Shown here one piece after another: positions 3-60,110 of a DNA stretch of 64,000 nt. Position 1 is the first letter of the stretch. The number at the start of each line of letters is the position of its first letter. The translations under genes were made by a program, and so were the position numbers. The DNA is from Protonemura montana (taxonomy: Eukaryota > Arthropoda > Insecta > Plecoptera > Nemouridae), in NCBI GenBank assembly GCA_947568835.1, contig OX387610.1, forward strand, positions 6,411,501-6,475,500, in the 5' to 3' direction. The notes beneath the pieces are model-generated. The model did no database searches and was not told the origin of the DNA. It saw only the letters and a program-made list of their open reading frames with translations.

Positions 3-3000
3 AAACGCACCCCTGGTCTGGTACCGACGCCCATGGCGGAGATCTGCGTCGACGTGAGCGGTGTCTGGGGTCCGCGGAAGACTTACAAGGATGCGTGCCT
101 CAACGAGACGCAGTTGTCTCCTGACTCTGCAGGTGGGTTCGGTAACGAAGTAGACGACGAGTACTACGACGACGAACCTCTACCAGACTCGATTCCCGAT
201 TCGTTCTGGGCGCCGGTTGTCAAAGATGACCTTGAGCACTGGCCAGCGCTGGCTGATACGTCTCAGAGGCGGTCTCCGTTCAAGCAAGAAGAGATGAAGG
301 ACGAAGATTCAGATATGTTTTCGATCAAGGAGACAAAGATGGCGAGGCCAGGGTATCTGGAGATGATCGAAGAGGTACAAGAGGTCGCTGTTGAAGAGAA
401 AAAGTTGGAAGACGCTGTCGGGGTCGTCGCTCAGATAGAGGCGGTGGTCGCTCGGCGTTCAGACGAAGATCTCGCCAACAAATACCAGGTGAGCGGGAAG
501 GCGCGCAAGAAAAAGAAGGGGAAAAACAAATTAAAGAAAGTGGTCGATGTTCTTTAGTAAATCTAGTTGTTTATGTCGATACATTACACGATGAAAGTAA
601 CTAGTTCGAATATAAATAAACATACTAAATCGATCGATGGCCGGCCATGTTATTGAAGATGAGAGGTTTTCTTTCGTTTGGTTGTTGGTTTTTTTCTGCC
701 TCCACACCATCGATTCGTTTCCAATGCTTACCTTTCGACGCTTTTGCTTCTCGCGTTGTACAGTTTCAAGTCAACATCGGCCTCCTCCTGGCATCATACT
801 GATAGCATTGCCCCCCCGTGTAATTATTCCGTTAATATTGCTCGATTCTGTTGCAGGGTCTAAAGGAACAGGCATTGGAAACGATCGCTGTAATTAGGAG
901 GGGCGACTATGCTGGACAGACGCAAGAAGAAAGCGTCGATGACGGCGTCGATGACGACGTCGGCGTAGTCAACACCTGGAAGAAGCGTAAGTACCTATAG
1001 GCAAATACATATCTACAACTGACACTGATGGGGCTAAAAAGGACTTCCCTTTTCGGTACTCTATTCAGGAAAATTGATTTTGTATTTGTATTCATTTAAT
1101 AGAGATTGTCCAGTATTTATTTGATTTGTCTAGCACTAATCAAGCATTACATCAATTGATACAATAAAATGAACACTATTTTCTACTTTTTTCTGCAAAT
1201 TCTTCAGATCCACCACGTGAGTCAATGTTAGATAGCTGCATTTTTCAGATGCCTTCGTTTGACAAAGCGAATTATTGCCACAGAGAAACGAAATAACGTT
1301 TTCTTTCAATATAACCAATAAAAAAGGACAAAAAATCCAAACACTTTCAAGAAATCCGAGTGAAAGTGAGCACTTAATCCTTTCTCTTTGAGTATAACCA
1401 ATAAAAACAGACACAAAATCAGATTTTCTGTTTGAGTCTGGCAGCCTCGTTCATTTTCTAGATTTTCTGACATGTTCGGTAGTTCTCAACTTATCGCCTG
1501 GCAGGCCATGGCCAGGTAGTAGCCCAGGTTTCACACTTTTGACCAGGGGTGGGCACGCGTAAACGCCACTAATTTTTGCCATCAGTTTCACGAACATGAT
1601 TATAGCACAATCTATCTGCGATACAATTCGATTTGTCAGGCTGAAAATTTAATTAAAAAAAATGTTTTTAATGCTAATTAGATATCAGCTAAATATTCCT
1701 TAAGTTGGTTAGCTTAATCCTATTACTTAACTAGCGTGAAAGCTGAGCCTTAAATTAGATTGGACAGATACATTTTCATCATTATGTCTTGAATTTGATA
1801 AGTTACTGGTGAAACGCCAAGAAAATGTAGTTAGTTTTGACTTTCCAAGTAGTTTTGACTAAGTATACATACACATTTTTGATAACCAGTGCTTAATAGT
1901 TATAGTAGATAAATAAAATGTGAGTTTAAAAACCAGAATTTAAGTTTGAACATTTTTACACTTGAAAGGGTTGCTTTTCCACTTGGATTCTCAGTCTCTT
2001 CATTTTCCTATCTAGTTCAAGATTCAATTAAAGATTTCTTATCATTTCGTGAATTTCAGATGGTCGGACACACTATCACATATTTGCTACACCATCTGTG
2101 CTTTTACTGTTAGTGCCGACACATTTTCGGGTTGAGTTGCCAATTCATCAACCCCAATGTTACATTATGACGGGATGATGAAGCATCGTAGAATGATTAC
2201 TTAAGCTATTGTAGCACTCTGTCAATCTTTTAATTGGATTTGGCGTTCAAAATGATCGATCTTGATTATCGAAATTAAGATCGCTATAACAATTCGTAAT
2301 TTTACCGTGCAAATATTGTCATTTATTATCTAAAATACTGATTATATTTTGCTCACGAAACCCAGAGACCATTCAGGGTTTTTGGTATAGGATTGTTTCC
2401 AATCAATCCTCCAAATGATCATTTAATGATAGGTTATAAGTAGGTATACATGATAAGTAATTGATTCAGTGAATGAAAATTATTAAGAGTAATATATACT
2501 GTTTTTATTATTTTTCATGTATGTTTCGATATATATATATATATATATATGTATTGTGCTATATGTGAATCTGTAAACTGACAATTTCCAATACCCAGGC
2601 ACGGGTCTAAGGAAAATAATAAAGCATTATTATTATTATTGTAATAACTTGTTAAAAAATAATGCTAGGATCTCCTTAAGACCGTGGTTCTGCACATATC
2701 CCAGGAGCGCATGAGGATTTTTCCATCTAAACTCTTCCGACGAGTACATTACGACCAACTCGCTCTTCAGGAGTGAAAAATCGAACAATTCGTCATATGT
2801 ATCTTGAAGGAGTTTGAAGTGCTCTGAAGGGAAATCTATACTGAAATCCACGAACAGTTTAAGGTCCATTAGAGAGATGAATTTAAACCGCTCAATTGAA
2901 GAGTATCGATCTTCAAGCTGGGCAGTAATAGTGTCGATGAGGTCGCAATAGATTCCGTATAAGGTTTCTTGCAGTGTCACGGTCCCCTCAAAGTCTCGTC

Positions 3001-6000
3001 GCCTTTTGAGAGGGCGAGGTTCTTCGATTCCACAAGCTTGGTTCTTCGAAATAACTTCTTGCCATACGGTATCAAAACGTATGCATCTTTCACTTCCTCT
3101 TTGATTTGGTCCAGCATCGCCTGCCCCACGGCTTCGATAAGGCTATTTTGTATACTATTCGCAGTTCCGCGAAACTCTGTCGCAGTTTTCAAATGCCTCT
3201 TCAACAAATGATCATAGCTTCCTATTAGCGACAAAAGTTCTAAATAATGACCTTTATTGAGCGAAGTGCTGCTCTCGTCTTGTCCACGAAATGGTACTTC
3301 TAGTTTCTCTAGGTGACACACGGAGTCGATAAGTCTGTTCAGGATTTCCTTGTTATGCGTAACGAGCTCGTTGTGTTTAGCTTCATTCAACCTCTGCTGC
3401 TGGTCATGTTCGATTTCTATGACAGAATTGCCAAATGTAGCCAACTGCGTCTGCAGCCGGGATAAAATGTGCCTTTGCGATCGTTGGTTTATTTGTGGTG
3501 TTTTAACGACGCACTGTTTTGACAACTGGCCCTGCGGCACTGGTCTAATGGCGTCGGTGAATGAGTGGATGATGATGAGGATTATGATGCACCTAACCTA
3601 GCCTAGAAGGGAGGAGGGGAAACCCGGTGCCGGCACGTAGCCTACTCCTGTCGAAAAGCACCAAGGGGACCACCGGCTTCACGTCCCTTCCGAAGGACGG
3701 TACAACTCGAACAGCAGGATTCCTCCACAAATCCATGCTGTCGAGAGGTTGATAAGCAAGGCGAGTGAAGTTGCTGTACTAACTTTCATCCCTCCAACCT
3801 CTCTCCCGAACAGAACTGGTCATGTGTATAATGGTCACCCATTCAATACCTGACTCAGCGCAGTGTTGCTTAACTTCGGTAATCCAACGAGAACCGGTGT
3901 TTCCAACACGCCAAACCGTTCGGTTTTGCGATCGTTGGTGCTTTTTAACAGCATGTTGTTCAATGAATTCAGGTTGGCGATTCCTTTCTTGCTCCAGGCT
4001 GTTTTGTCGTGTCCAAAGAGCAAACAGGGCCAGCAGAAAAGTTGATGGAACCTGTGAAAGGTGTGTGATAACGGCACCCGACAAAAAATACCTCAAACTC
4101 AGTACCCTCAGCACTTTGTAATGTTGAAATATTGGAGTATTAATTATCGCTATAATTTTGAAAATTATAGCGGCAACCGCTCCCAATAATATTATTTTTT
4201 TCTCAAATACCAACTGTGTGCCTGCCTATGTTCAGCGACGCTCCTGGACGTGCCTCGCCTGGGTAAGCCGCCCAGCGTCGATGTAGGAGAGTCGAGCTCT
4301 GACGACGAGAGTCCGTTGATTCGTTGGTCGGCGCCGACGTCTGAGGGTGGCTATGTGGTTGCCGTCGACGTAGAACCACGTGTTCACCGTAGACCTTCGC
4401 AGGTACGCGATCCACGTTGTTTAGTGTTGATTGATTGATGAATGATCCTTTCGTAGTCTAGAAGGGAGGAGAGAAAACCCAGTACTAGCAGGTAGCTTTC
4501 TCCTGTCAAAGATCAAACGTCTCTTCCGAAGGACGGTACAATGCGAACAACAAGATTACTCCACAAATCCATGCTGTCGAGAGGTTGATAAGTTAATTGA
4601 GTGAAGTTGTTACTTGTTGTACTAACTTTCATCCTTTCAAGTTTCAACCTCTCTCCCGAACAGAACTGAAGGTGGTCAATTCCTGACCCAGCGCATTGTT
4701 GCGGCAATCTCACGAGAACCGATGTTTTCAACACGACAAACCTTTCGGTTGTTTGCTGAATTTTGTGTCTGTCTCGAGCTAGATCTGAAAATTTTTGAGT
4801 GCAATGAAAAACGAGGCGTGCTTTTTAGACAATTCTTTGAATTCTCGTAATTGGCATGACACTTTATTGCTTTACTAGGAACCCTACTAATCTCTCAAAA
4901 ATGTGTCCGCATTCGGGATTAAGATACTAAAATCCTAAACCCATTGGCGAGTTTCTTCTCAGCACACAAAAGTGATTGCTTAGATCTAAGAACTCGTGAT
5001 CAAATAGAAAAAAAAATATCGCCCGTGACCGATGTATCGATTCAACCGCACCCCACTGGGCTAATGACAAAATGTCTTCGCGAAATATGGTAGCCAAATA
5101 ACTACTTTACCGACAAAATCTGAGGATACTAACAGAGGTGGACTCACCATCGTTTCTAGTGTTACGAAATTCCATTTTGTTATTTCTCGTAGATTACTCG
5201 CATTTGAAACTGATTGACGCTCAATAAATGTTTATTAATCCTAAGCTCTAAAATTGATACGATTGATACGTGTATCGATTAAGTGAGTCTTAATTATTTA
5301 ATTATAAAGGTTTGTTACCAAAGTCAGCCGCAAGCGCAATCGGGTGGCACCTACAGTTACCACGTGTTACCAGCTCGTTTGGTCGTGCTGGTCCTCTGAC
5401 TAAATCTATAAACTCCATGCTACAGCTGTAGCCCACAAGTCTATAGAAAAATATTTAATTTTGTTAACTTATCAAGTTATCATGTATTATTAATATCATT
5501 TTTTTCTCTAGTGCCCTATCCCCGCCTCGACCACAACTACCGCCACCAACCTCAATTCGTCATTAACGGCCACGTTATCTACCGACACCTTACCCTGCAC
5601 TTCGTCCCTTCCAATCATCGTCTCCGCCGACGCCGTTGATGCTACCGACGCCGATGAATCCACGATCAGCCGCGTCTCGTCATGCATCACCCTTCCCGAT
5701 GACACGACCGCACCGTCCACCAAGCCAGCGTGGCTCAAACAGCCCCGCAAAAAGCCCCCCGGTCGACGCAAGCAAAGCAAACCTGGCACCAAACCAAAGC
5801 CCGACAAACCCGCCTGTTGTTCGCATCCCTTCACAGCTACCGACCGAAACGCCCTGGTCAAAATCGAGCGTGAGCTTAAAGAAAGGCGTGGACCAGCTGG
5901 ACTCCTCTTATTCCGCTGCGTCCGTCGCTTCGGCAACCGATGCGATGCCTGCGTTGGCACTGACTGTGGCGCGCACTTCGAAGCAGTCCCTGGAGCGCAG

Positions 6001-37800: not shown

Positions 37801-40800
37801 CATCGGTGAGTGACAGAGAGATTTTAGTTTTAAAGAGGGTGTGCAAGGATAATAGGAGCTAGAATAGAACAAAGAAGAAAATAAAGAACTGAATGATTTG
37901 GTGTGGTGGTAACATGGGTTCTCGAGAGATCGCCGAAGTTAAGCAACACTGAGCTGGATTAGGTATTGGGTGGGTGACCATTATGCACATGACTGGTTGT
38001 GTATGGGAGAGAGGTTAGAGGATTGAAATCAGTACAACAACTCACTCCAACCTCTCGACAGCATGCATTTGTGGTGAAAACCTGTTGTTTCAGTTGTACT
38101 GCCCTTCAGAAGGGGCATTAAGCTAGTAATTCCATTAATGCTCTTTGACGGTGGTAATTACAGGTCTATATTCTATTCTATATTCTGATCAGGTCTTATT
38201 CTAAGAGTTAGATCCGTTATCATTTTCAGCATCACCCATTTGATCACTGACGTCGTCAGAACAATACCACATACCCTGTTGTCAAAACTGAGTGTTGCAA
38301 AACACCATAAACCATTTTAAACCATTTTATATAACCTTAATATTCATGCCAAATTTGGTAAAATGTGTTACAGATGCTTATCTATTTCCAAAATATGGTA
38401 AAAAGTAAAAACCAAAATAGCCGCAAATGCTCTCAAAATTCTCAACCGAGTGCAATCCTTGTCCTGTAGCCGAACGCTTTGAGTTTGCGCGCCGTCTGAA
38501 GCTAGCGATGTCTGAGCTACGTGTCGCTGGCGAACGACTTGGACGACTGGAGCTGGATAAGCGGCTGGCGATCGGCCGGGAAGACTTCGACCGTGCCAAA
38601 GCCAAGAAGTTGCAGATGGACACTTTCCGCCAGTCGGTGCACGAGGGGCTCGGTGTTGACACGCTGCTGGAACTGCATGGGGTGAGGCTCCAGAGCATGA
38701 TGTCATCAAGCAAGTTTCAAACCTGCCTTGGTGCTGGCCAGTCGAAAAAGCTATCAGATCTGCTACACTCTTGCTGTCAGCATGTCTCTTGCTCGCTCGT
38801 CCTTCAGTTTCCCGCTAACGTTCGTGCGTGTCGTGCAGATGGACGCTCGCAACGATGTCAGCCTAGAAGCTGCAGCCGAACCACAGATGTTGGTACCTGG
38901 TGCTACCGTCACCGCCAACCGTGCCATCTCACCTCCAGGCTCGCCACATCACCCCCATCGCATACCCAAGAAACAAGGTCTTACGTTCACTTATATTTGT
39001 ATAATCCAAATAGGTTGCCAAGAGACTGGATATTTTTGTGGTGATGATAGAAGGAGAGAGGGAGAGCAACTTACTAGAGAAGAAAATTGGCATCGCGGGG
39101 TGCAATTTTCGGGAAATTTCTATAATTTCCGAGAATTTTAATGTTTCGGCGTGTTCTAAAACCAGTATTCTTACTAGTTCTATTCTAACTAGTAAGACTA
39201 AAATGGTTTAATTACAGGCCTGGCCACCAGAGCAAGTCCCCCGCCAACAGTTTCGCCAACCAACCTCCTGGCTCGCAGTGGCATCACTGGCGTTGGCAGC
39301 AGTGGGTCGCTACGACGGCGTCAGAGCAAGCCTGCCAACAAGAGCAGCTACGAGGCGTACGAAGAGCGAACGATTCCAGCACTAAGGCAGTCAGTAAATT
39401 TCACAATTTCTAATCACACAATCACAACAATTAGCTAACTCTAGCATCGTTTAAAAGTCACAGAGAAGTAAAGAGAAGTGAAAGTACACTAAGACTACAC
39501 AGATCTTAAATAACCTTAGTAGAGATCCAGCCAGCTTATCAAAATTGAAGTCAGGCAATTCATTATTGGTAACAGGTAGAAGTCCCTACATCTGAGGTGG
39601 TGGCCCTATGATATCACTGCTCATTTTTGACTTTTTGAAACATGTTTTCAATAAATTTTAAGCGTTAAAGTGATGAAAACACTTAAAATAGAATGGGTTC
39701 TTTGAGAGAACTCAAAATCAGGGACTCTCAGGATGACATCCTTGGCTTCAAAGTCTCTCTATGGCAACCGCTATCCAGGTTATTTGTCATTTGCGACCAC
39801 CAATCGTATTATGTAGTACCAGGGTGCTCCCCCAAATGACCGCACTAGGGAAGGCACCAGACTTAATGAACCTAGCAAACAGACCTAATACTTAGGGATT
39901 AATTCTGATACTTGTGGCTGATAACTGTGGCTGCAGCCAATCAATGTCCATGTTCTGACCCTTGTGACTCTCTTGGGATTTCAGTGGTCACGTGACCTCT
40001 CTGCGAGACACCGACGACGCTCTGGAAGGGCCGACATCTCGTTCCAAGCTGACGGAACGGGAGAAGAAGCAGGCAGCACTTCCGCTTACCGTCTTTGGAA
40101 ACGAGATGGTCGAGAAGTTTTTTTCCAAGCACTATGCAGACAAGGTGAGGTTAGGTTTAGGTCTCTAGTTCTTTAGCATTCAGGTTATGTTGGACACTAA
40201 AAACTCTCGTAGTTGCTCGTACAACTAAGCCTAGGTACCCCAAAGTTCTGAATAGGATGCTTCATGTCCCATTCAGGAGGAAGGCCTGCGGTTGCTGAAA
40301 GACGAGCTGCGGTCGCAGATTGCACGCAACCGCGTTCCCCACGGACCCAACAAGACCGCGCGTGCCACCGTGCATCTTTTACACCGCGCGCTGCGCGACA
40401 AAGTCTTCGCAGTCTACAGCGCAGCGGCCGAAGCAATCCGCATGTTCTTTGCGGAGTTCGTGCCTTCTCGGTATGACTTATGAATAAACTTTTATCTTCT
40501 GCGTTAGGTCTAGGTTCTTTTGTGTTCTATATTTTTTAATATATTTATTTATTTATTATATTTATTTCTTTAATTCACACTTCTATGTGTGTTCAGTCAA
40601 TGTTCAGCGTTCTTAGAACTATGTGAGGTCTCTCAATAAGTGCCTAAAAAGAATGCCACATATGCCAAAAGCATATTTGCAGAGTTTTTGGTTTTTCTGG
40701 TGTTTCCACTAGGGAACTGAAACCAGCAAGCAAATGATGGAAGGGGAGCTAGACTGGGAAAATGTTCAACCGAACCGGGATACGAACCCCGCACCTCCCA

Positions 40801-43800
40801 ATTGCCGGTCGGGTGCTCTTCCAACTGAGCTATTCAGGTACACCCTTATTCCTTCCCGCAAAAACTGGAATATGTGTGCCCGGAAAGCTCAGTTGGTAGA
40901 GCACCCGACCGGCAATTGCGAGGTCCCTGGTTTGTATTCCGGTTCGGTTGCACATTTTTCCAGTCTTGCTCCATGGGAGCAGTCTAGCAGCAGTTTATAC
41001 CATGGGACAATTCCGGCTAAATATGGACTACGCTATCTCCAGAGTAGTTTATTGTCTTTGTACTCAACGGCAAAAAAACTAATGTAGAAGATCTCCGAGG
41101 GCTACAGATCAATGAAAAACGGAGTGAGTTTGTAGGGCTTGTTACTGCTTTTTTTTAGCCGAAAGGACCAAAATGGGTTTTATATTTTCACAAAATGAAG
41201 AGCGGATAGTTTTTTTCTTTTATTGTTCACAATTCATTTGGCATTCTAAACACTGCCGATATTTTTAAGACTAATAAGCACCCACAAGAGACGTGGCTTG
41301 TTCATACTTTTCAAAAGTACCGTCGGTCTTTGCTTTGCGATTGTGTTTTAATGAGCAGTCGACGTGTGCAGGGTGACGGCAGCGGAAGTTGCACGGAGCG
41401 TGGACCGACTTCTACCGGAGCTGCTGGCCAAGTCAGGTGACACGACGCCCCGCATACACAACATGGCCGTGCATACCGTGCTCAGCATGGCCGACTGTCC
41501 GCAAGTCAGGTGAGAGCCAAGACAATATCATACTTTCACTACAATTCAATTTAATGTTTGATTATTAACAAATCCGCATTACTCCGCATTACTCCGGTGG
41601 TCGCTAGATGTTACAAACATTTGATTGAAAGCATGTATTTTACATTTGTATAGTTAGCTATAATTAGACTTTATCAGGTAACAATTTGGCAACTGCCAAG
41701 AATTCATTTGGGAAGGTCTCCATCGCTGGTTGTTTTGAGCTGCCCAAAAAGGAGAAACGGCCCACGTCTGTCTTATATCTCGGCGGCTGTAATTTCTGAG
41801 CATGGTCAGATTTGCAAGTGAACACACACATCTGACTTATTAAACATAAACCTTAACCACCTTACCTTTACTACCATTAACATTTGTTGAGTCCAGCCAT
41901 CATAATTAAAAATTCAATCTGTTAACTCGTATTATTCTATTTTATGTTTATAAGTGTTTATATGTCCTAAGTTTTGTCATAAAAACACTGGGATATTTGT
42001 TTTAGAAATTGTATCAAGACCATATATCACTGATAAAGTCAAAATCTTAGGCTACCATGACGTTGGTGCCAAGATTTTATAACACAACTGTGTTTTTGCT
42101 ACTTACAATCAATGCAACAAGCTCAATTGACTGTTAATAATCGATTGTTTCTCTCCAGAGAGCTGCATGTGATCCCGGTGTCTTTGAGCCGACCCATGAC
42201 GGCCGCTACGCACCCTCGACTCGCACTCAGCCGCCTCGAGATGGTCGAGCAGCTCATAGTCAACCAAGGCATCTCCACTCACAAGCACAGGTACGTTAGG
42301 TTACGATACTAGTACCTTGGAATCCAAGCCTCATGGCTTGTGACAAAGCATGTGACATGGGAACAAAAACAAGAAATGGTAACGAAATGCCTGAACCTGT
42401 TTTGAATCACACCGAATGGTTTGGCATGTTGGAAACACCGGTTCTCGTTAGATCACCAAAGTTAAGCAACACTGCGCTGAGTCAGGTATTGGATGGGTGA
42501 CCATCATACACATGACCAGTTCTGTTTGGGAGAGAGATTGGTGGGATGAAAGTTAGTACAGCAACTTCATTCGCCTTGCTCATCAACCTCTCGACAGCAT
42601 GGATTTGTGGAGGAATCCTGCTGTACCAGTTGCACCGTCTTTTGGTAGGGATGTTAAGTCGGTGGTCCCCTTGGTGTTCTTCGACAGGAGTAGGCTACGT
42701 GCCGGCACCAGGTTTCCCCTTATCCCTTTAAGGCTAGGTTAGGTTCATCATCATCCTCATCATCATCCACTCATTCACCGAAGCCATTAGACCAGTGCCG
42801 CATGGCCAGATGTCAAAACAGTGCGTCGTTAAACACCACAAATAATAATAATAATAATGTTTTGATTCACAAATACTGTAACTGTACTGTATGTGGCTCT
42901 TTGCTTTGAAGAAAATGTAGCTACTAAATCTAATAATTTGTGGGGCCCTCATCTATTACCTAAAATAGGAAAATAAATTCAGTATTTGAAAATATAATTT
43001 GCTGAAACGAACAATTTAGCAAATTATATTTTCAAATACTGAATCTTTCAAATACTGAAAAATGTTAAGAATACTCGAGTGCTTTCCAAATTAATTAAAA
43101 ACATAAAGTAATTTGTCTCATGCACAGCTATTAAAAAAGTTTCTGCATGTCAATGAACACAATACCACAGATCATAAAAAGTTCATTACCACCTAAAATT
43201 GGCCACATTAAATCTTGCGAGGAATTTCCTCGCATACAAGAAGAAATGATTTGGAATGCTCCAAGGGATGGTTTGATCAGCAATTAAACCCTCTGCAATT
43301 CCCTATTTCTATCATTGCTATGTAATTCTTTTTGTCTTTATCAGTAACCAGTAGCACTTCATTACGACGCTAGCTTCCTTTGTCGCCAGATTTCATACCT
43401 TTTATAGAACTTTCAGCATAGAATGATAATCACTATTTAAAATAGCCAACACACTGCCTTCCAGCAAAATTCACCCACAAGAAGGCTGTGTCTTGGCTAT
43501 TTTCAAAGCCGGTTCTAATCCTGTGAACACTATTGCATAGTTTTTTTAATAAAAATCTCGGTACAATTTTTCCGAGTTGACATCAATGACATTTTTTAGA
43601 CTCATGTCTACTTTATTTAACCTTGGCACGAGTTTTAACCCAGTTCAAATAGTTAACACTGCTAACTATTATGTTCCGTTGACAGCGGCCTGTCCTGCCG
43701 TACTTTATCCGAGTTCGGCTCGTCCGCTTTGCACCACCCTGCCGAGGCGGTCCGTAAACTGGCCGAGCGGCTGCTAACGTTGGTCTACCGGGTGAACCCG

Positions 43801-48104: not shown

Positions 48105-48570
48105 GTACAGCGGGTCCAATTGCTTACGAGCCCTCCTAGAATCGTCTCACCGAACGGTTTGGCGTGCTGGAAACACCGGTTCTCGTGATATCACCGACGT
48201 TAAGCAACACTGCACTGGGTCAGGTATTGGATGGGTGACCATCATACACATGATTAGTTATGTTCGGGAAAGAGGTTAGATGAATGAAAGTTAGTACAGC
48301 AACTTCATTAGCCTTGCTTATCAAACACTCGACTGCATGGATTTGTGGAGGAATCCTGCTGTTCGAGTTGCACCTTCCTAAAAGCCTTCCTGAAAAATAC
48401 CTAAATTTCAGCCGAACTTCTCCATTTCTATTCTCACCGTTTTCACAATGCTAAATGCCAGTTCAATAAGCAGGTTAAGATGAAAACAGAAGTATCTGAT
48501 TAGGTTTAACCATGGTTATGACTCTCATAAGTTAAGTTGGACATATTAAAACTGCCCGTTGGAATAAACG
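48105..48570 (+). repeat. Fragment of the TIR element carrying a 5S-SINE
   Basis: This segment is the inverted counterpart of 50455-50925. Both begin or end with CGGGTCCAATTGCTTACGAG, hold a 5S-SINE (here about 48152-48390: CGACGTTAAGCAACACTGCA, TTGGATGGGTGACC) and run into AGTTGGACATATTAAAACTG. The SINE was therefore already inside the element before this segment was duplicated. Confidence 0.7.
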
Positions 48571-50180: not shown

Positions 50181-51705
50181 ATGGGCGTCCGGAGGGGGGG
50201 TGCAAGGGGGAGTGCGCTTGCATCCCCCTGGAAATCTTCAAACATTAAAAAATAAACACTCTATTAAGGCACTCTATTATTTTATCATTCAAAGGGCAAG
50301 TTACACATATTCTCCCATTTAATTGATCAAAATAGTGTCATTTAAATGGAAAACGCTACATTTGTATTGCATTCTAGAGAGGAAAGGTGGGTGACCATCC
50401 AACCTTTCTAGCGAAAAAATCGCGGCGTAATTCTATGAAACTGGGATCCTATAAGAGTTGTTACGGGGAGTACGGGCAGTTTTAATATGTCCAACTTAAT
50501 TTATGAGACTCATCCCCATGGTTATACCTAATCAGATACTTCTGTTTTCATCTTAACCTGCTTATTTATCTGGCATTTAGCATTGTGAAAACGGTGAGAA
50601 TATAAATGGAGAAGTTCGGCTGAAATTTAGTTATTTTTCAGGAAGGCTTTCAGGAAGGTGCAACTCGAACAGCAGGATTCCTCCACAAATCCATGCAGTC
50701 GAGTGTTTGATAACCAAGGCTTATGAAGTTGCTGTACTAACTTTCATTCATCCAACCTCTCTCCCGAACATAACTAATCATATGTATGATGGTCACCCAT
50801 CCAATACCTGACCCAGCGCAGTGTTACTTAACGTCGGTGATCTGACGAGAACTAGTGTTTCCAACACGCCAAACCGTTCGGTATGACGATTCTAGGAGGG
50901 CTCGTAAGCAATTGGACCCGCTGTGTGACTTGATTTTGTCAAGAACATTCACATCTAACAAATGCTAACATAGTTAAAATGAATCTAATTAAACATCCGC
51001 AATCAAGTACGAGAATTTGCAGTTCTTTAGCATCTGCATGCCTGGAAAACATTTGGTCTGTGATAGCAGCCGTGGACGCCATTGCTGTTATCACCTAGAT
51101 CCACTTCGAAAACCGGTCAGCCAATGGGAGCCGAGCTTCAGTCGATCGAAAGTACGAGGTGGGGTCGATCGAGCACGTGTTGTGACGTCACTTGCACAGC
51201 GATGCAGTAGGTTTCAGGCGATACTCTTCTGTCGGCTACTCGCCTGGTACGATGAGACAAATTTTCGCCTCGTTTTAGACGATTATTTCAGTTAAAATTT
51301 GTCATGGTTGGATTAACCGTACGTATAGGCAGTCCCGTGGCACTCACGCGTACCACGAGTTGCTTCAAAGTTTTCACAGGCAAACTAAATTTCCTGACAA
51401 CGTCATTCGTTCACAGCTACTTGACACAATTTTATGAAATATAGCTTTGAATTTTAGGCATAGGCAACGACTCATAATAGGACCGATCGGGAGATAAAAT
51501 TCTTAAAATTCTTAAAATAAAATTCTTTTGAAATAAGGGACCTGGACCAATACTTTGTTCGCTGCCAACAAAAACTAAAAATTGATTTCGTTGCGTGGAG
51601 CGAAACAGGCACCCTGTTACGGAATGTCCTTCACAGAGGCGACAGCGAATGTAATTTCCAGGGGGGTGCAAGCGCACCTCCTTGCACCGCCCTACGGACG
51701 CCCAT
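50181..51705. mobile_element. Non-autonomous TIR element, copy 1, with a nested 5S-SINE
   Basis: The ends are inverted repeats of about 53 bp: ATGGGCGTCCGGAGGG at 50181, and CGGACGCCCAT ending at 51705. Both continue into a GTGCGCTTGCA block and TGGAAAT. The flanking GCC (50178-50180, 51706-51708) could be a 3-bp target-site duplication. A 5S-SINE occupies about 50655-50885 on the - strand. The only conserved open frame is 92 codons (51017-51295) with no recognisable domain, so mobility would need help from elsewhere. A copy of 51000-51700 recurs inverted at 60661-62310, with very few differences in the part I compared. Confidence 0.75.
51110..51200 (+). promoter_or_regulatory. Promoter-like motif cluster inside the TIR element
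   Basis: Within 75 bases lie an AGCCAATGGG CCAAT box, a CACGTG E-box (51174-51179) and a perfect CRE palindrome TGACGTCA (51183-51190). All three are conserved in the inverted copy near 62130-62215. This is sequence evidence only; activity is not shown. Confidence 0.4.
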
Positions 51706-51779: not shown

Positions 51780-52255
51780 TTCCTACCGTTCGAACCTAAC
51801 TTTACGTAAGTCAGTTATGTTTCGGGAGCGAATCTAGTAGGGTGCTTTGTTAGCCCGAGCGTTTTTGTTCAGTGTGTTGATTGTGGGAGTATGGATCTAC
51901 GCAAATATTTTAGTGCGAGTGTGAAGAGAAAGGCGAACGATGACGCGCGTGAAATTTCGGACAGTCATGGCAACAGCGATCGCAGTATTGAAAGTGCATG
52001 TGCATCTACATCGACGACTGCGTATTCCGAAAAGCCAATACCAGACTTTGAAACTGAATGTGATCTAGGTCCTCAAGCTGCTATGGATATTGGCCACTTC
52101 GTGAATCAGGACCTAACCGACCAACTGAGACACACGCTGGTGACAAAACCATGGTCTCCGAGTGCATACAAAGCTGACGTGCAGTGTCGGACTGGCCAGG
52201 GCAGCCAGGCGGCAAATACCGCCGGGGCCTCCAGCCGGCCGGGGCCCCTGGGGCC
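51780..52255 (+). pseudogene. hAT (ZMYM1-like) N-terminal fragment
   Basis: An ATG at 51891 opens with MDLRKYF and a Ser/Thr-rich leader, then DIGHFVNQDLTDQLRHTL and KPWSPSAYKADV. This is the arrangement at the N-terminus of ZMYM1-like hAT proteins, just before the TTF zinc finger. From about 52190 the sequence changes to a GC-rich stretch and the zinc finger never follows, so the copy is truncated. It starts about 75 bp after the TIR element ends. It is a different copy from the one at 2636-4105. Confidence 0.6.
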
Positions 52256-52499
52256 CCCATTTACAATAAGGAAGTTTTTTAAAACATTTTTTAATTTATA
52301 GTCATTTGATTATGTTGTCTTAATGTTGCAAATAGCCAGTGCTTGTTATCATTGAGCCACGCTGCCCTGATGGCAACAGGTTGGTGGAAGTCGTATATAA
52401 ACACTTGATTTTAGACTTGGAAAAAAAAAATCATGAAAGTTATATTTCGGATCATCTCTCCCCATCCCTTCACTTGATCCATGTTCCAGGTGAAGGGCT

Positions 52500-53290
52500 T
52501 TGAAAGACAAAAATAGGAGGCGCCGTGAAGCGAACTCCGGACCTCACGCATTGGAACTCACGACCATCCCACCGCGCCACGAGGACACGTATGCTGTAAC
52601 TGATTTGTTATCAACATGCAAGTCAATAAAACAAGATGTAAATAAATCACTTCTAGCAGTAGTATTTATGTGTGAATCCTGATGGGTAGGCCACTCATCG
52701 TACACGTATGCACTGACGTCGTGTTTACAGTCCAGGCGTTGGGTGTGCCGTCACTTCAATTTCTACTCAAGAAATATTGAAAAAGCAATGGACGTTTTTT
52801 ACGTTTCTTACGTTTATTCTTGATTTTTGAAGATTCGCCCATACTGTGGTCTATGGGGTAGTTTGCACCCCCGAACACGATGGGCTATTATGGGCACGAT
52901 TCCGTTATTTTATAGCTTCAAGGTTGGCAGCTCAGCAAGGTGGGTACACGGGTTACCGACCGATGGCCGTGATTTATCGACATTTTAATTGATCAAGTAC
53001 ATTTGATATTCAACAGATTGCGTTTGCGTTCTCTGTGTGCTTTAACTCGACTGCTGGTTCGGTGATACTTGTTTGGTATGGTTGACCAGGGGACCTGACT
53101 GCGAGCAACGGGGTTCGACTGGCGTTCCTCCAGTCGGCCTTCAAGGCTTGCATTTTCGCGTTAGATCGTGGCAACTGGTGAAAGCCCATTTTTTGGAGTG
53201 GCCGCGTGCCTCAGCACTGCTTGGTGTTGGGGTCCGGTCCGGCATTTACACATTGTGTAAGAGCGAAGCCTTCTTTCTCTGTTAGCGCAT
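52500..53290. repeat. tRNA-like-headed repeat unit, left copy
   Basis: Order: a minus-strand tRNA-like sequence; AAATAAATCACTTCTAG; then a GC-richer block with GGCGTTCCTCCAGTCGG and CTGGTGAAAGCCCAT. The same order recurs at 59640-60110. The two units flank the tRNA-like cluster as direct repeats. The family is not recognised. Confidence 0.6.
52516..52588 (-). other. tRNA-like sequence 1
   Basis: Minus strand: A box TGGCGCGGTGGG, B-box-like GAGTTCGCTTC, then TCCTATTTTTG, a possible Pol III terminator. The acceptor stem does not close cleanly. It is a pseudo-tRNA or the head of a SINE, not a functional tRNA. Confidence 0.5.
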
Positions 53291-53330
53291 GGTTGATATC
53301 GTGGTGGTGGTGGTGGTGGTGATGGTAACG
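53290..53330. repeat. (GGT)n-rich microsatellite
   Basis: A run of GTGGTGGTGGTGGTGG lies near 53299-53325 and continues with degenerate GGT/GAT units to about 53400. Confidence 0.8.
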
Positions 53331-53399
53331 TTGATGTTGGGATTGATGGGGGTAGTGTTGGTGGTTTTAGTGCTGTTCGTGGTAGTGGTGAATGTTGGC

Positions 53400-53908
53400 T
53401 TCGTTATATTGCTTCTCGTGATGTTTATTAATGTCTGTATGCATATCACATGATGATATACTTTAATTTTAATTCCGAATAATTCGTGTATATATTAATA
53501 CTTCCCCCTTTTCCTACTTCTTCTTATATAATTACTTTATATAAATTTTCGTACTTAAGTTACATTTTATTTTAGTAAAAGTAGCCATCTTTTCATTTAG
53601 CGTTCCCCACCATGGCCAATATTGTTTCGTCGATGCTATCACCCCCTGCTGTTTAACTGTGACAACTCTGTCAAATAATCCGAAAAAAATCTCAAACACT
53701 GCCTCCATAATTTTCAATAAAAGATATTTCGACGAAGCATTATAAACATCAGCTTCAGTATTGCCGATCATCGTACAAAATAAAAAATACGTTCGAAGTC
53801 TTGTACAGTTTACTCATCCTGGATCTTTCACTATGTATGAACAGACTGTCGTCTAACACCCCTTGGACACTCAGGACGACGGTGCCTTACTCTGGCGCTG
53901 GTCCTTAG
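53400..53908. other. Spacer, nothing recognised
   Basis: I find no gene or element that I can support in this AT-rich stretch between the microsatellite and the MITE. A 79-codon minus-strand frame (53532-53771) has no recognisable domain. Confidence 0.4.
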
Positions 53909-54190
53909 GTCTAGCATCAAGCGTATAGGAACGATTATAATGAGTGTTACGCATCATCAGCGCCACCTGTTGACAGGATTTTGTACTACACTTTGGACAA
54001 ATATGTTGATATTTTCCTGCTGTATTTCCAAGTTATTTTCCGATTAGTTAATCAATTAGATTAAAAATCAGACTTGGCAAATGTCTTCAATTTTTACAAG
54101 TCCAGAGTATAGTACAAAATGCTGCCAACAGGTGGCGCTGATGATGCTTAACACTCATTCACACTCGTTCCTATATACTTGATGCTAGAC
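53909..54190. mobile_element. MITE with TIRs of about 95 bp
   Basis: Left end GTCTAGCATCAAG and right end CTTGATGCTAGAC are exact inverted repeats. They continue inward with few mismatches through GAGTGTTA(C/A)GCATCATCAG, CGCCACCTGTTG and TTTTGTACTA. Total length is 282 bp with no coding capacity. No clear target-site duplication is seen. Confidence 0.85.
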
Positions 54191-54224
54191 GTAGGAGTCA
54201 ACGCGGGATACGGGTGGCACGCCC

Positions 54225-54454
54225 GGGTGCGTGAGCGACTGGCGCTCCGCGCCAGTCGCTCACGCACCCTGCTGGACCCTGGCGCGAAGCGCCAGGGTCC
54301 AGCAGGGTGCCGGTGCGCCCGTGCACCTGAGCGCGCGAAGCGCGCTCAGGTGCACGGGCGCACCGGTACGCGTCCAAGCGCGCGGAGCGCGCTTGGACGC
54401 TACAAATTTGCGGAGCGCGACTGGCGCGAAGCGCCAGTCGCGCTCCGCAAATTT
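54225..54454. repeat. Array of five consecutive GC-rich hairpins with 3-nt loops
   Basis: Five perfect inverted repeats follow each other with almost no spacer. Stems are 21 bp (54225-54245/54249-54269, loop TCC), 22 bp (54264-54285/54289-54310, loop GAA), 27 bp (54310-54336/54340-54366, loop GAA), 14 bp (54370-54383/54387-54400, loop GGA) and 24 bp (54404-54427/54431-54454, loop GAA). Stem sequences differ, yet every apex is GCGC-NNN-GCGC with loop GAA or GGA (TCC is GGA on the other strand). Hairpins 1 and 2 overlap by 6 bases. The array is far richer in GC than its surroundings. The family is unknown to me. Confidence 0.95.
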
Positions 54455-54519
54455 CCTGGTGTCTACACTGTGCGCTCAAAAAAAAAAATAAGGGGTGTGA
54501 AACTGCAGTAGTTTTGCGG

Positions 54520-54602
54520 ACGGGATTCGAACCCGGGACCCCGGCAATCTCATGATTAATCACAAGAGGTAGTGCCTTGTACCGCACGACCTCGCGGACA
54601 TC
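54520..54602 (-). other. tRNA-like sequence 2
   Basis: Minus strand: GAGGTCGTGCGG in the A-box position and a perfect B box, GGGTTCGAATCCCG. It lies 65 bp after the hairpin array. The 7-bp acceptor stem does not form, and no T-run follows immediately. Confidence 0.55.
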
Positions 54603-54699
54603 TAGATTCCCAGGCATTTTTATGGCATATAATTTCTTCAGACTGCAGCTACCATATGTGAATCATTTGAATGTCGTATTCCAATAGAAAAAATATCCT

Positions 54700-54784
54700 G
54701 TCGGTGAGCGGGATCGAACCAGGTCACAATATAGCTTCATGGTTCCGAAGTAACGACATGTCCATTGTGCTACGCAGACGATCG
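54700..54784 (-). other. tRNA-like sequence 3
   Basis: Minus strand: A box TAGCACAATGG and B box GGTTCGATCCC at tRNA-like spacing, followed after about 15 bases by ATTTTTTCT, a possible Pol III terminator. Confidence 0.55.
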
Positions 54785-55247
54785 CCCCTGCTATGGTTAA
54801 CTGAATATATTTAATTTCATATCTGATGTCCCTGTTTACCGGGTTGACTATAGGCACATGTCAGTGACGGCACTCAATGTATACTACGGTTCGGAGTCGC
54901 ATTCTTCTTTGCGTTTCAGTGAACCATCATTTAAGAAATTCAAGATATTATGACCGACTATGACCGACTTACGCAGCGAGCAAGAACTGGACCTGACCCC
55001 CGCACCAAGTAATGCAGGGGCAATCGTCCACTCCAAAGATACGGGCTACCACCAGTTGCCGCGATCTAGCGTGAAATTGTCAGCTGATAGCGCCCTCTGC
55101 AGGGACGCGAGCCACACCCAGTTGCTGGTTTGTCGTTCTTTTTTTTTTGCCTTCTTATCCGACCCCGGCAGCATGGAGATCGCTTCACACTACATCGCCT
55201 CTGCCATGCACTATCAAAGATTGTGCAAGCTATGTCGTGAAGAACAA

Positions 55248-55335
55248 AAAGCGGAGCGGACAGGACTCGAACGCGGTCACATCCGGATTGCGCTTCCGAG
55301 GAGCGACTTTTCCAACCGGCCATCGAGACGAGATA
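55248..55335 (-). other. tRNA-like sequence 4
   Basis: Minus strand: A box TGGCCGGTTGG, B box CGTTCGAGTCC, then CTCCGCTTTTTGTTCTTCA. The TTTTTG is a good Pol III terminator. The tail TTTTGTTCTTCA is shared with the next unit, which shows a common family. Confidence 0.6.
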
Positions 55336-55496
55336 GTTATCGATGGAACAAAGAGATATATGAATAGCAGAAGACGACTACAGTGTAATAATGAAAAGAG
55401 TCAAAAATACTTTGAGAGTTTCGATGGATGAACGAGCGATGCAATATTTGCAGCATTCAATGAATGCCAGTCGCCACTTGATGAAGAACAAAATGA

Positions 55497-55576
55497 GGAT
55501 CGGGCAGGATGCGAACTCGAGACATTTACGCAATGTCCCCATGTAGAAGTGGCCGTACCTCACAGCCACTGAGACT
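55497..55576 (-). other. tRNA-like sequence 5, next to the transposon
   Basis: Minus strand: TGGCTGTGAGG in the A-box position, GAGTTCGCATCC in the B-box position, then TCATTTTGTTCTTCATC. Its 5' end lies only a few bases from the long-TIR transposon that begins at 55581. Confidence 0.5.
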
Positions 55577-55580
55577 GTTA

Positions 55581-58500
55581 GGGTCATTCCATATCAAGTG
55601 CCCACACTCAAAACCTTCACTATCTCAGAACTTGACGAAATTTTCAGGAGGGTTAGAACACCGGAAATAAAAAATCTCTTTTAAAGTTTTTTTCCATACG
55701 CCTAGCGGTTTGCCCGTGGCAGGGGATGGAAAAATAAAATATTTTACTTTTTGCCCCGCACGGCCATTCACTATATTCACTCTAGCGTTTGAACAAATAA
55801 ACTTAAAACGATGGGATTAGTTCTAAAATGATAATCGTGCTTTCATTAACAAGAAAAAATGCATAAATTGCTTACTTATCAAGTTTAGGGGTAGAAAAAA
55901 TCCACCCTTAAATTTCAACCCTTAATAACTCGAGAAGTAATTTTTTTTTTTTTTTTTGTTTTGTTGTGAAGCATCTCCTGTCTATTATCTTTCCATGAAA
56001 AAAAAATTAATCATTAACAGCCGTATGATCAGAAGTTATGAGATTTTTATTGTATAAATGTGTGTGCATTTAGTTGTGTTTCTGCAAGTCTGTTAGCATG
56101 GTCCATGCAATTCACCCGTAAATTGATAGATTATATAATTTTTCAGTTTAAAAATTGTGTGTAAGTACTACAAAGATTCTTTTTACTCACTCATTTCTTC
56201 GTTTCACTCTGACCTATCACTCTGGCTTCTTCGAACAACGGCGAGGAGGAGAACACCCGCGTGGCTACTGAGTGCTCAGACACGGGTACGAAGCAATGCA
56301 GTTTTTGCGTGCCGGGAATTGGCCGGGATGACGCAAATCGTGTGGCTAGCAGCTGTTCTGTGTCTTGGTGCTCCTCAATAGTTCCGAATGTGAAGTTGAT
56401 GGTCGGGATGGCTTCGACCGCCCAATCGAAGAGTTGCCGGGGTGTTATTATTTGCGACTCGTAGGGGCGCTGAAGACTCGCCCGCGCTGCCAGCCGCTTG
56501 ACCGTCCCTCCGACGCCGTCGCAGGCGCTCTTCCCATGTGACGTCGCCGTGAAATGCCACTCCACGTCGGCCCCAAAGTCTCTTTGATAGTGGCACAAGT
56601 TGGCAAAATTTTTCCTATTTTTATATTGCGAGGCTGCCCCATCAGAAAAAAAGAACATCTTCTTTATGGTCTGAAATTTATTGTGCAAAAAGCTCACGAG
56701 TTTTTTTATGAATAGATGCACTGCGACAGTGTTGTGGATCAAACTCTCGGAAATTACAACAAAGCTGATGTGGCGCTCTTCCCCGCCCTCTTTGTAATAT
56801 GCCACGAAGGGGTGGATGGTGGCGGACGCATTGTTCCAGTGGAACCCCTGGGCCTCGTCTTGTAGCACGAACGCATAGTTTTCGGCAAAATCACAGATCA
56901 CCAAAAACTCGCCGGGCAGGAGACCGCACTTGATGTCCGATTGGTGCGAAGATTGTTTTTTAGCAATAAAAGAGTGGCGGCACAGAGCAACTAATTTTGC
57001 ACAAAAACTGTCCACGAATTCCTCGGATGAATCGATGTGCGTTTGCAGGGTGCATCGGTCGGTGCTCTCCCACTGCTTGTAGATAACATTGTCCACCATT
57101 TCGTCGTCCAGCAGTTGCGTGAGGCGCTCCTTTAACGGCTCGATGCCCGGGCACTCCTCACACTCGCCTAGATGGCATTCGGGGAGGGGACTGTCGCAGA
57201 CCAACTGCTCAAGGCAGTCGTGGTAAGATGTTATCGGATAAGATTGGTCCACTGTCAACTTCGTCAAGTCGGCACCGATGATCATTAGCTTGACGTTTTG
57301 GTGGATAGTGCACACGCACACCGAATGAGTCCCACTGGCACCAGGCAACACACAGTTCTTCGGCCGCAGCTCTGCAAATTTTGAAAATCCTATTTTTTTA
57401 TTAGGAAATTTGTCCTTGAATTGGGTATGGAGGTCCTTAAGGTTTGAGAGTACGAGCCTTTTCTGGATGTGCACTCGAGTGCCGCTCGCCTCCTTGACGG
57501 AAACATAGTCTTTCTTGCCCGGCATGGCTCGGCTCACATCGTCTGAATTGTAAAAAGATTTTACTCGGTCAACTGTGGCTCGGTCAATTGTTTTTCCTGG
57601 CTTTGGATTCGGGGTTGACAAAATTCCCTTTTCCAGGACGAGCTTCTTTGCCTTGCGGACCATGCGCTCTGACGCTTGAAACTCTGCCACTGTTCGCCGG
57701 ACAGAGCAGCTCTTCGGGAGGACAGTTAGAACATGCACTTTCTCGCTGTTGGATGTGGACGAGTGAAACTTCTCTTTCAGCTGATTAATCATTTCGCGAC
57801 CATCAGCTGAATCTTGGCCACTGTCGCTTTCAGCGTCGGAGGTAGTGGTTCTTTTAAGCGCACCTTCGAGTTTCTTCAATTTCTTCCTGGGATAACTGGA
57901 TTGCGCCAACTTTTTCTTAACAATGGGCGATTGCCCTAGCTCCGCCAAGCCCACGTTGATGTTAGACAAAGCAGCGTCTTGTCGGAAAAAATATGCTTGA
58001 CTCTCGGCGTTTGCACCACTGCAGCCGGGCTGCGAGTTGTCGCCATCGCTGGAGGTCGTCGTCGTCACTGGAGAGTCGCTGCTGATTGGTTTTACGTAGT
58101 TATTTAAATCTTTCCTACATTTGGCACAGATTTTGCTTCCTACTGGAATCGAGGAAATCTTTTCAATCATCCACGGCTGGACGTTGAGGAGAGACTTCAG
58201 CTGTGTGTGGGAAACGTGTTTAAAAGGATTGCAGCACTTCGCTCGAGTAAACGAGTCCATGATTAAATTACATAAAATATACAAAACTAAACGCTGTGAT
58301 TATAACTATTAAATAAACTAGCTATTACTATACTATTGCTATTAATTAAAAATATGTTCACAAGACACTTCCAACGGTATTATTAACACCCCTCAATTCA
58401 CGACGCACAAAAATAATGCAAAGAAAACTTCGAATCACTCGTCTACTTGCACTGAGCTAAGTGTTTTGCGACTGACCAAGAAACCAATGCAGAAACAACT

Positions 58501-59360
58501 GAATTCGCTGTCTCACGGCTAAACTTCCGGCCATAAGGGTTGAAAAGAGAAACAGGTAGCAAGGGCTGCACGTGTTCGTGGTGGGATTCTTTAAATAGAA
58601 GTAGGTAAAATATGAATTTCGTCAGATCCGTGGTCATAATGCACGGCAGAAACACAGACCTAGTATCGTGACCAGAGCCACATATTATCATGTTTATAGC
58701 ACAAAGCCCAAAAATATCACATCCTTATAATAAAATTTTAATTGCTCGACTCCATCCCAAATTCAAATCTTTTCAAGCTTTATTTATGCTATGACAAACT
58801 TAGCATAATCGAATGCTTCTGAATTCAATTTGGTTCATGCTCAACAAACTATTTAGCAAAAGCACTTCTAAATTCATACACATCTATACAATAAAAATCT
58901 CATAACTTCTGATCATACGGCTGTTAATGATTAATTTTTTTTTCATGGAAAGATAATAGACAGGAGATGCTTCACAACAAAACAAAAAAAAAAAAAAAAA
59001 TTACTTCTCGAGTTATTAAGGGTTGAAATTTAAGGGTGGATTTTTTCTACCCCTAAACTTGATAAGTAAGCAATTTATGCATTTTTTCTTGTTAATGAAA
59101 GCACGATTATCATTTTAGAACTAATCCCATCGTTTTAAGTTTATTTGTTCAAACGCTAGAGTGAATATAGTGAATGGCCGTGCGGGGCAAAAAGTAAAAT
59201 ATTTTATTTTTCCATCCCCTGCCACGGGCAAACCGCTAGGCGTATGGAAAAAAACTTTAAAAGAGATTTTTTATTTCCGGTGTTCTAACCCTCCTGAAAA
59301 TTTCGTCAAGTTCTGAGATAGTGAAGGTTTTGAGTGTGGGCACTTGATATGGAATGACCC
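55581..59360 (-). mobile_element. Complete DNA transposon with TIRs of about 490 bp
   Basis: The element is 3780 bp. Ends GGGTCATTCCATATCAAGTG (55581) and its exact complement (59360) continue as near-perfect inverted repeats to about 56074 and 58867. They match in length, including a 17-base T/A run. GTTA flanks both ends (55577-55580, 59361-59364) as a 4-bp target-site duplication. One long transposase gene lies inside on the - strand. A 4-bp duplication fits Sola-type and a few other superfamilies; I cannot assign it firmly. The close match between arms and the intact gene suggest recent activity. Confidence 0.92.
56191..58284 (-). CDS. Transposase of the long-TIR DNA transposon
   Basis: An unbroken 697-codon frame fills the interior of the transposon. 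M9 (ATG at 58258-58260) in MDSFTRAKCCNPF is as likely a start as M1. The N-terminal 60 residues have C17/C18 and C53/C56, a probable zinc-binding DNA-recognition region. A basic, Ser-rich linker (about 120-160) follows. The conserved core has VICDFAENY (D465), FFFSDGAASQYKNR (D548) and WHFTATSHGKSACDGVGGT (E575, H583, D589). These are plausible acidic catalytic residues of an RNase H-like fold. Many invertebrate genomes carry proteins with this core, usually unnamed. No introns or stops interrupt it. I infer the role from the motifs and the flanking TIRs. Confidence 0.85.
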   Translation of the reverse strand: MYILCNLIMDSFTRAKCCNPFKHVSHTQLKSLLNVQPWMIEKISSIPVGSKICAKCRKDLNNYVKPISSDSPVTTTTSSDGDNSQPGCSGANAESQAYFFRQDAALSNINVGLAELGQSPIVKKKLAQSSYPRKKLKKLEGALKRTTTSDAESDSGQDSADGREMINQLKEKFHSSTSNSEKVHVLTVLPKSCSVRRTVAEFQASERMVRKAKKLVLEKGILSTPNPKPGKTIDRATVDRVKSFYNSDDVSRAMPGKKDYVSVKEASGTRVHIQKRLVLSNLKDLHTQFKDKFPNKKIGFSKFAELRPKNCVLPGASGTHSVCVCTIHQNVKLMIIGADLTKLTVDQSYPITSYHDCLEQLVCDSPLPECHLGECEECPGIEPLKERLTQLLDDEMVDNVIYKQWESTDRCTLQTHIDSSEEFVDSFCAKLVALCRHSFIAKKQSSHQSDIKCGLLPGEFLVICDFAENYAFVLQDEAQGFHWNNASATIHPFVAYYKEGGEERHISFVVISESLIHNTVAVHLFIKKLVSFLHNKFQTIKKMFFFSDGAASQYKNRKNFANLCHYQRDFGADVEWHFTATSHGKSACDGVGGTVKRLAARASLQRPYESQIITPRQLFDWAVEAIPTINFTFGTIEEHQDTEQLLATRFASSRPIPGTQKLHCFVPVSEHSVATRVFSSSPLFEEARVIGQSETKK

Positions 59361-59496
59361 GTTAGCTATACCAGAGGAAATAACATATACTTGAATAGCA
59401 GCTGGCGGGGATCACGGTACACCATCGAGAAGAGATGTTAGTTTTCTCTGTAAAGATTAATACATATCCAGCAGTTTTACACACATGTGACTTACC

Positions 59497-59580
59497 CGCT
59501 TCGAACCAGCGACCCTCTGCACCCTGGCGCTGAGCACGAGAGCGATCTTCACTCGCCGCCGAATGGACGCTACGAAGACC
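59497..59580 (-). other. tRNA-like sequence 6
   Basis: Minus strand: TAGCGTCCATTCGG in the A-box position and GGTTCGAAGCGGG in the B-box position. The middle contains GCGCCAGGGTGCAGAGGGT, which resembles an arm of hairpin 2 in the array at 54225-54454. Confidence 0.45.
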
Positions 59581-59639
59581 GGCGAGAGTTGCATGACAAT
59601 ACTTTAACAATCTTGGTAGGTGATTGATTCTTAGTTAAA

Positions 59640-60110
59640 AATAGTGCACCAAGCGGGATACGAACCCGGCCCCGTTTATCCTCCGTTCCACTTTCATGTA
59701 CCTTTTGCAGGAAGTAAATAAAACAAGATATAAAGAAATCACTTCTAGGCCACAGTGCCCCTATTTACTCTTATTTATAGAGTTTATATCAAATGTATTA
59801 TGATATAGTCCGAGTATTATATTTTCGTTTACTCATAGTAAATATTCGTATCCAAAATAATATTTATAAATATCATAATATCCAACAGATCGCGCTGGGG
59901 GTCAGTGTGCTTGGAGTCAAGAGAACCTGGAAGCCCTCCTTATAGCAACGGAGTTTGTCTGACGTTCCTCCGGTCGGGCTGTAAAACTTGTATCATCGCG
60001 TTCGTCTTGCTTTAGTTAAGTAGAAAGCTGGTGAAAGCCCATATTCATAGAGTGGCTGGGCGCCGCTCGTCTTTTCAACCCTGGTGTTTCCTTCACCTTG
60101 CAGCCTACTG
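59640..60110. repeat. tRNA-like-headed repeat unit, right copy (includes tRNA-like sequence 7)
   Basis: Minus strand 59643-59700 has the B box GGGTTCGTATCCCGC and then TGCACTATTTTTAAC (Pol III-type terminator). It is followed by AAATAAAACAAGATATAAAG, then GACGTTCCTCCGGTCGG and GCTGGTGAAAGCCCAT. This is the same order as in 52500-53290 and the two are direct repeats. Confidence 0.6.

Follow-up and report, generated by a model that had tools for sequence, protein, structure and literature searches.

An array of perfect hairpins with short, partly inverted spacers inside a dispersed repeat of Protonemura montana

Inverted repeats separated by very short spacers have been studied in yeast, where template switching homogenises the two arms and inverts the spacer between them; in the sections consulted of PMC8604942, Table 2 includes 3-nt spacers changing from tcc to gga and from gaa to ttc, and spacer inversions were observed only with arms of more than 9 bp. 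The same case has been argued for RNA hairpins (PMC8794818), compensatory changes accompanied by loop inversion being very rare there according to the parts of that paper at hand. At the level of single molecules, the sequence CGCGAAGCG is presented in the excerpts of PMC10527192, along with d(GCGAAGC), as an extraordinarily stable DNA mini-hairpin; CGCGAAGCG melts at 88.5 C. Perfect palindromes whose maintenance appears to be active were described in the mitochondrial genomes of Nematomorpha, and repeat conversion and template switching are both discussed in the portion of PMC6649704 consulted.

The array described here shares several features with these systems. As in the template-switching papers (PMC8604942, PMC8794818), the arms are homogenised, complementary changes affect both arms, short spacers are exactly inverted and the flips are recurrent. 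The consulted sections of those papers deal with inverted repeats that stand alone in genes for proteins or RNAs, however, whereas here five to six hairpins lie in a row in a non-coding dispersed repeat, show a single type of apex, and three of the six never flip. The mini-hairpin (PMC10527192, excerpts) is a short oligonucleotide, whereas its counterpart here caps long genomic stems, and the value of 88.5 C refers to the GAA form. The perfect arms and their apparently active maintenance recall the Nematomorpha palindromes, but the latter, in the portion of PMC6649704 consulted, are mitochondrial, coding and up to 284 bp long, whereas the present hairpins are short, clustered and located in non-coding repeat DNA. 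GC-rich hairpins lying in repeated DNA are also found in organelles, namely the RHE of sponges (PMC2800124), the palindromes of Volvox (PMC2670323) and the mitochondrial elements of yeast (PMC4478555); according to the abstracts of these three papers, those elements spread themselves, whereas the present hairpins ride in a larger repeat. A literature search of partial coverage yielded no description of such a hairpin array in a dispersed nuclear repeat. The process is already known; it is the array of five to six hairpins in a dispersed repeat, flipping singly between fixed outer members, that did not turn up in this search.

The window, i.e., the whole stretch of 64,000 nucleotides analyzed, carries the following hairpins:

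54225..54269, unstranded, hairpin H1, 21-bp perfect arms, spacer TCC at 54246-54248
54264..54310, unstranded, hairpin H2, 22-bp perfect arms, spacer GAA at 54286-54288
54310..54366, unstranded, hairpin H3, 27-bp perfect arms, spacer GAA at 54337-54339
54370..54400, unstranded, hairpin H4, 14-bp perfect arms, spacer GGA at 54384-54386
54404..54454, unstranded, hairpin H6, 24-bp perfect arms, spacer GAA at 54428-54430 (H5 is missing in the window copy)

The last one was named H6 because most of the related copies carry an additional hairpin, H5, ahead of it. When the arms were extended to their maximal perfect length, we recovered the five perfect inverted repeats counted in the sequence-only reading, with arms of 21, 22, 27, 14 and 24 bp and 3-nt spacers between positions 54225 and 54454, H1 and H2 overlapping by 6 bp. 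The common apex GCGC-GAA/GGA-GCGC proposed in that reading is present as such on the plus strand in four hairpins; H1, which has TCC on the plus strand and GGA on the minus strand, conforms to it only when the other strand is read. In H2, H3 and H6, the sequence CGCGAAGCG is present, the hairpins with a GAA spacer matching the mini-hairpin letter for letter. Among perfect arms of at least 12 bp with spacers of 3-8 nt anywhere in the 64 kb, a scan listed hairpins of the array only (overlapping matches were merged, so that H2 was not listed separately), and the single-stranded DNA fold of positions 54220-54460 was found to have an energy of -157.5 kcal/mol, versus a mean of -69.25 kcal/mol for shuffled sequences (sd 3.59, n = 200, z -24.58). 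Chance, already dismissed in the sequence-only reading, is excluded by these two analyses. Since this block recurs at many other sites, it is unlikely to result from a local error of assembly.

The other copies were sought in one assembly of 258,480,905 bases in 34 contigs. Genome-wide counts were 331 + 321 for the apex GCGCGAAGCGC, versus 66 + 53 for the reversed pattern. The census of arrays, which may miss those with quite different stems, comprises 40 loci that were read (the window, 12 and 27 others), plus two divergent arrays, L125 and L126. Of the 40 loci, 36 have four or more hairpins that could be classed, while L073 and L085 consist of H6 only and L094 and L097 are degraded. Exact cores of H3 were found at 32 sites, all inside the 40 array loci, and those of H4 at 37 sites (one array being counted twice), of which the two new ones correspond to L125 and L126. 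All 40 loci entered the arm and spacer counts given below with whatever hairpins were classifiable in them, and the two divergent arrays entered none. H5 is absent in 14 loci, which is a slight overcount since L087 is wrongly included: the classifier assigned one of its hairpins to H4 alone, and an H5-like hairpin with a GGA spacer is present by eye.

In the two divergent arrays, whose hairpins were named by eye, the left flanks are about 95% identical to that of the window (36 of 38 positions in L125 and 69 of 73 in L126), and the right flanks about three quarters identical (64/86 and 75/101). L125 carries five perfect hairpins whose stems are largely different, the five-hairpin plan being retained. 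L126 has two hairpins without mismatch in the part that is known (21 and 14 bp), one H6 that is perfect over 16 bp and one hairpin with a damaged apex. Apex-to-apex fusions, which were observed in L097 and L027, show that deletion or recombination acts on the arrays too.

The sequence surrounding the array belongs to a dispersed repeat, the window copy of which is split by a nested transposon lying outside the array:

52182..59748, plus strand, copy of the dispersed repeat in the window, 5' end CAGTGTCGGACTGG, 3' end ...CTTCTAG
55581..59360, minus strand, DNA transposon nested in the repeat, terminal inverted repeats of ~505 bp, GTTA on both sides

Left and right of the array, long parts of the window sequence can be aligned with 12 other loci, at ~85-92% identity. 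The DNA queries scored the best 40 of 183, 139 and 391 candidates, and the counts obtained from them are lower bounds. In L031, the repeat is ~3,946 bases long (~3.9 kb), the array is internal, at ~2170-2439, and the longest stop-to-stop stretch listed amounts to 144 codons. The array is an internal module of a ~3.9-kb dispersed repeat that is apparently non-coding. Its position at ~2.17-2.44 kb out of 3.95 kb in this copy runs counter to the earlier suggestion that the hairpins might mark a hairpin-ended mobile element, and it does not match the terminal hairpins of elements with parvovirus-like ITRs or of foldback elements. The repeat begins with CAGTGTCGGACTGG and ends with ...CATCTA, and many copies continue into another unit starting with the identical 5' sequence. 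By eye, no inverted ends were found at its termini, and possible target duplications of ~5 and 7 bp were seen in two copies only. The first 33-34 bases of the repeat are tandemly arrayed just upstream of two copies (G000:C13:1871824-1872536 and C5:921508-921608).

Helitrons begin with TC, end with CTRR preceded by a hairpin just upstream, and insert between A and T. An assignment to this class was rejected, since the repeat starts with CAGTG after varied bases, ends with ...CATCTA before varied bases, and has no hairpin near its 3' end. The minus strand of the L031 repeat carries motifs that we take to be B-box-like, and a search of this region against Rfam with E values up to 1 gave no tRNA match. 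The nested transposon is 3.78 kb long and carries a frame of 697 aa, which had no match in a Pfam search of six window frames.

The spacer is GAA, GGA or the reverse complement of one of these in 209 of the 213 hairpins. Its orientation, counted as purine/pyrimidine, is 23/13 in H2, 9/28 in H3 and 21/16 in H4, where there is also one CAA. Despite arms of 14-24 bp, no inverted spacer was found in H1 (0/37), H5 (0/26) or H6 (0/39) at the array loci, and this constancy goes against the expectation from a simple model that any long-armed hairpin flips. Among 15 close pairs of copies, picked by hand from the tree, a spacer flip was observed in six and none in nine. In three comparisons the flip is clean, the hairpin being otherwise unchanged: H3 between the window and L072 (1 difference in 148 flanking positions), H2 between L072 and L080 (3 in 230), and H2 between L086 and L089 (4 in 219).

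The window copy can also be compared with the copy on contig C2 (L064, L080, L104). The flanks of the two are 96.9% identical over 2,986 aligned positions, half of which lie outside the repeat, and 99.3% identical over 147. Since they share flanks on both sides, they most likely derive from one insertion that was duplicated later; the C2 duplicate spans only ~4 kb, which means that the nested transposon is seemingly absent there. Between the two, H2 and H3 are inverted and the spacer of H1 differs by one base, and the inversion of H2 and H3 between duplicates of a single insertion indicates that the flips occurred in place.

One explanation for this pattern is that the array serves the repeat as a functional DNA structure, such as a replication or insertion signal, whose pairing and G(A/G)A apex are kept by selection in the active source copies. 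The near-uniform apex, the fixed orientation of H1, H5 and H6 and the persistence of the five-hairpin plan in L125 all speak for it. The free flipping of H2-H4 does not, nor does the presence of flips between duplicates that go back to one insertion, on which no selection for mobility is to be expected, and arrays that are broken or reduced to H6 do occur (L073, L085, L094, L097). We regard this explanation as unlikely. As regards the origin of the apex itself, the background sites CGGCGCNNNGCGCCG number 23, of which 18 have a different spacer; of the remaining five, which have GAA, GGA or a complement, four lie in L125 or L126. The restriction to G(A/G)A is consequently not a general result of switching, which leaves an apex that was either inherited or selected; an apex common to all the hairpins fits a common origin as well as selection.

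The arms were compared position by position in the 40 loci. Within the compared arms, 168 of the 213 hairpins are perfect. Over 3,705 arm positions, 62 changes affect both arms with pairing kept, 69 affect one arm and two affect both arms and leave them unpaired. Complementary two-arm changes account for 62 of the 133 changed positions, versus ~0.9 expected under independent arms, although these cells are not independent because the copies share ancestry. The 62 changes represent 22 site/variant types, eight of which are transversions without a G-U intermediate, and private variants affecting both arms exist, such as those in H1 of L014 and H4 of L083.

Changes in sequence that leave pairing intact are what would be expected if the hairpins acted as RNA, either as hairpin RNAs or as precursors of small RNAs, their pairing being held by compensatory selection, and microRNA-family matches below threshold are present over the array in one copy (L031, in which 12 sub-threshold matches were obtained). 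Over the window array, Rfam 15 gave no family at gathering score. The transversions without a G-U step (8 of the 22 two-arm types) are not accounted for by this explanation, the loops of H2-H4 are inverted as whole triplets, and perfect hairpins are found in many copies which are probably inert. The structured RNA envisaged in the sequence-only reading does not seem to be favored, in view of the lack of an Rfam match at gathering score and the presence of both spacer orientations in three hairpins, and we consider a role as RNA to be highly improbable.

A longer imperfect inverted repeat located just upstream of the array served as a control:

53906..54193, unstranded, control inverted repeat, arms 53939-53998/54100-54159 and 53906-53934/54165-54193

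In this repeat, 101-230 nt separate the arms across copies. In 13 copies, it shows 2 two-arm and 32 one-arm changes, with 1,051 of 1,157 positions paired, whereas the hairpins of the same 13 copies show 11 two-arm changes, 15 one-arm changes and one unpaired double change, with 1,309 of 1,325 positions paired. Fisher tests gave p values of 0.0013 and 2e-21, from cells that are not independent. Arm homogenisation is much stronger at the short spacer, and the control and the hairpins also differ in their G+C content. The control, at 53939-54159, contains CCAACAGGTGGCGCT and its near reverse complement, which we take to resemble a CTCF motif, and cassettes similar to this inverted repeat recur in other repeats.

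The minimum number of orientation changes was eight in H2, four in H3, four in H4 and none in H1 on a tree of 34 rows with short flanks (111-236 bases, without L073, L085, L094, L097, L095 and L096), and five in H2, three in H3 and four in H4 on a tree of 13 rows with longer flanks; neither tree is well resolved, and the counts could be inflated by exchange between copies. The flips and two-arm changes might indeed have arisen rarely and been spread by recombination or gene conversion, without any special local process: the copies are similar and dispersed, shared apices do recombine, as in the fusions in L097 and L027, and the trees have poor resolution. Exact inversions and two-arm changes must still originate in some way, however; the long inverted repeat, which is present in the same copies, shows two-arm change to a smaller degree, and private two-arm variants (H1 of L014, H4 of L083) also speak against it. 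We consider this explanation to be distinctly unlikely.

A quasi-palindrome related to H6, with a GAA apex and mismatched arms, occurs outside the arrays, where its 33-base form has 85 exact matches. A genome search with its 26-base core gave no site with the inverted TTC spacer. Four array copies (L014, L087, L089 and L092) have in common a two-base mismatch in H6, so that the perfect H6 of the other arrays may be a corrected form. The close relatives L086 and L089 differ exactly in this two-base mismatch.

We propose that template switching in DNA synthesis maintains the perfect pairing of these hairpins, which are carried by a dispersed non-coding repeat, and inverts some of them, and we consider this to be probably correct. 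The proposal rests on the shared apex, the unlike but perfect stems, the complementary changes in both arms, the inversion of H2-H4 and the weaker effect at the long spacer. The nascent strand would switch at the hairpin, copy one arm off the other and then rejoin its own template. The arms would thereby become identical, and a switch between strands would additionally invert the 3-nt spacer. The stable GCGC-G(A/G)A-GCGC apex probably nucleates the folding. We infer that the route is one of replication, that the apex has this nucleating role and that the array itself is without function. Of the possibilities raised in the sequence-only reading, repeated hairpin-templated copying is the one that gained support, since the arms change together and the spacers invert, while neither the hairpin-ended element nor the structured RNA did so. 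Some points go against template switching: 69 one-arm changes persist, nine of the 15 close pairs lack a flip, the quasi-palindrome has neither lost its mismatches nor flipped although it shares the apex, and the states of the hairpins could have been passed from copy to copy by recombination or gene conversion.

The fact that the apex was inherited or selected and that H1, H5 and H6 are never inverted led us to retain a reading in terms of function in cis. The array might be a cis-acting DNA device in which the fixed outer hairpins, H1 (pyrimidine) and H6 (purine on the same strand), frame the flipping inner ones, giving a defined multi-hairpin single-stranded DNA structure that takes part in the copying or insertion of the repeat, its stems being able to drift provided that the pairing and the G(A/G)A apex are preserved. 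Such a device seems rather unlikely.

If template switching is indeed responsible, the ~40 array copies, the flanks of which date their divergence, constitute a natural experiment on this process in the repeat DNA of a eukaryote, in which flips and arm corrections can be counted by hairpin, arm length and spacer. On this view, a perfectly "compensated" stem need not reflect selection on RNA, which calls for caution in the prediction of RNA structures and microRNAs.

Several other features were detected in the window. Stretches resembling 5S rRNA, scoring 46-59 bits, lie at 3804-3924, 42412-42530, 48149-48269 and 50762-50882 and are perhaps 5S-derived repeats. A tRNA-Ala is predicted at 40766-40840. 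The reading frame at 2977-3540 on the minus strand, the only one with a Pfam match among the six window frames searched, matches DUF4371 (PF14291, E 2e-8) and is likely to be a transposon fragment.
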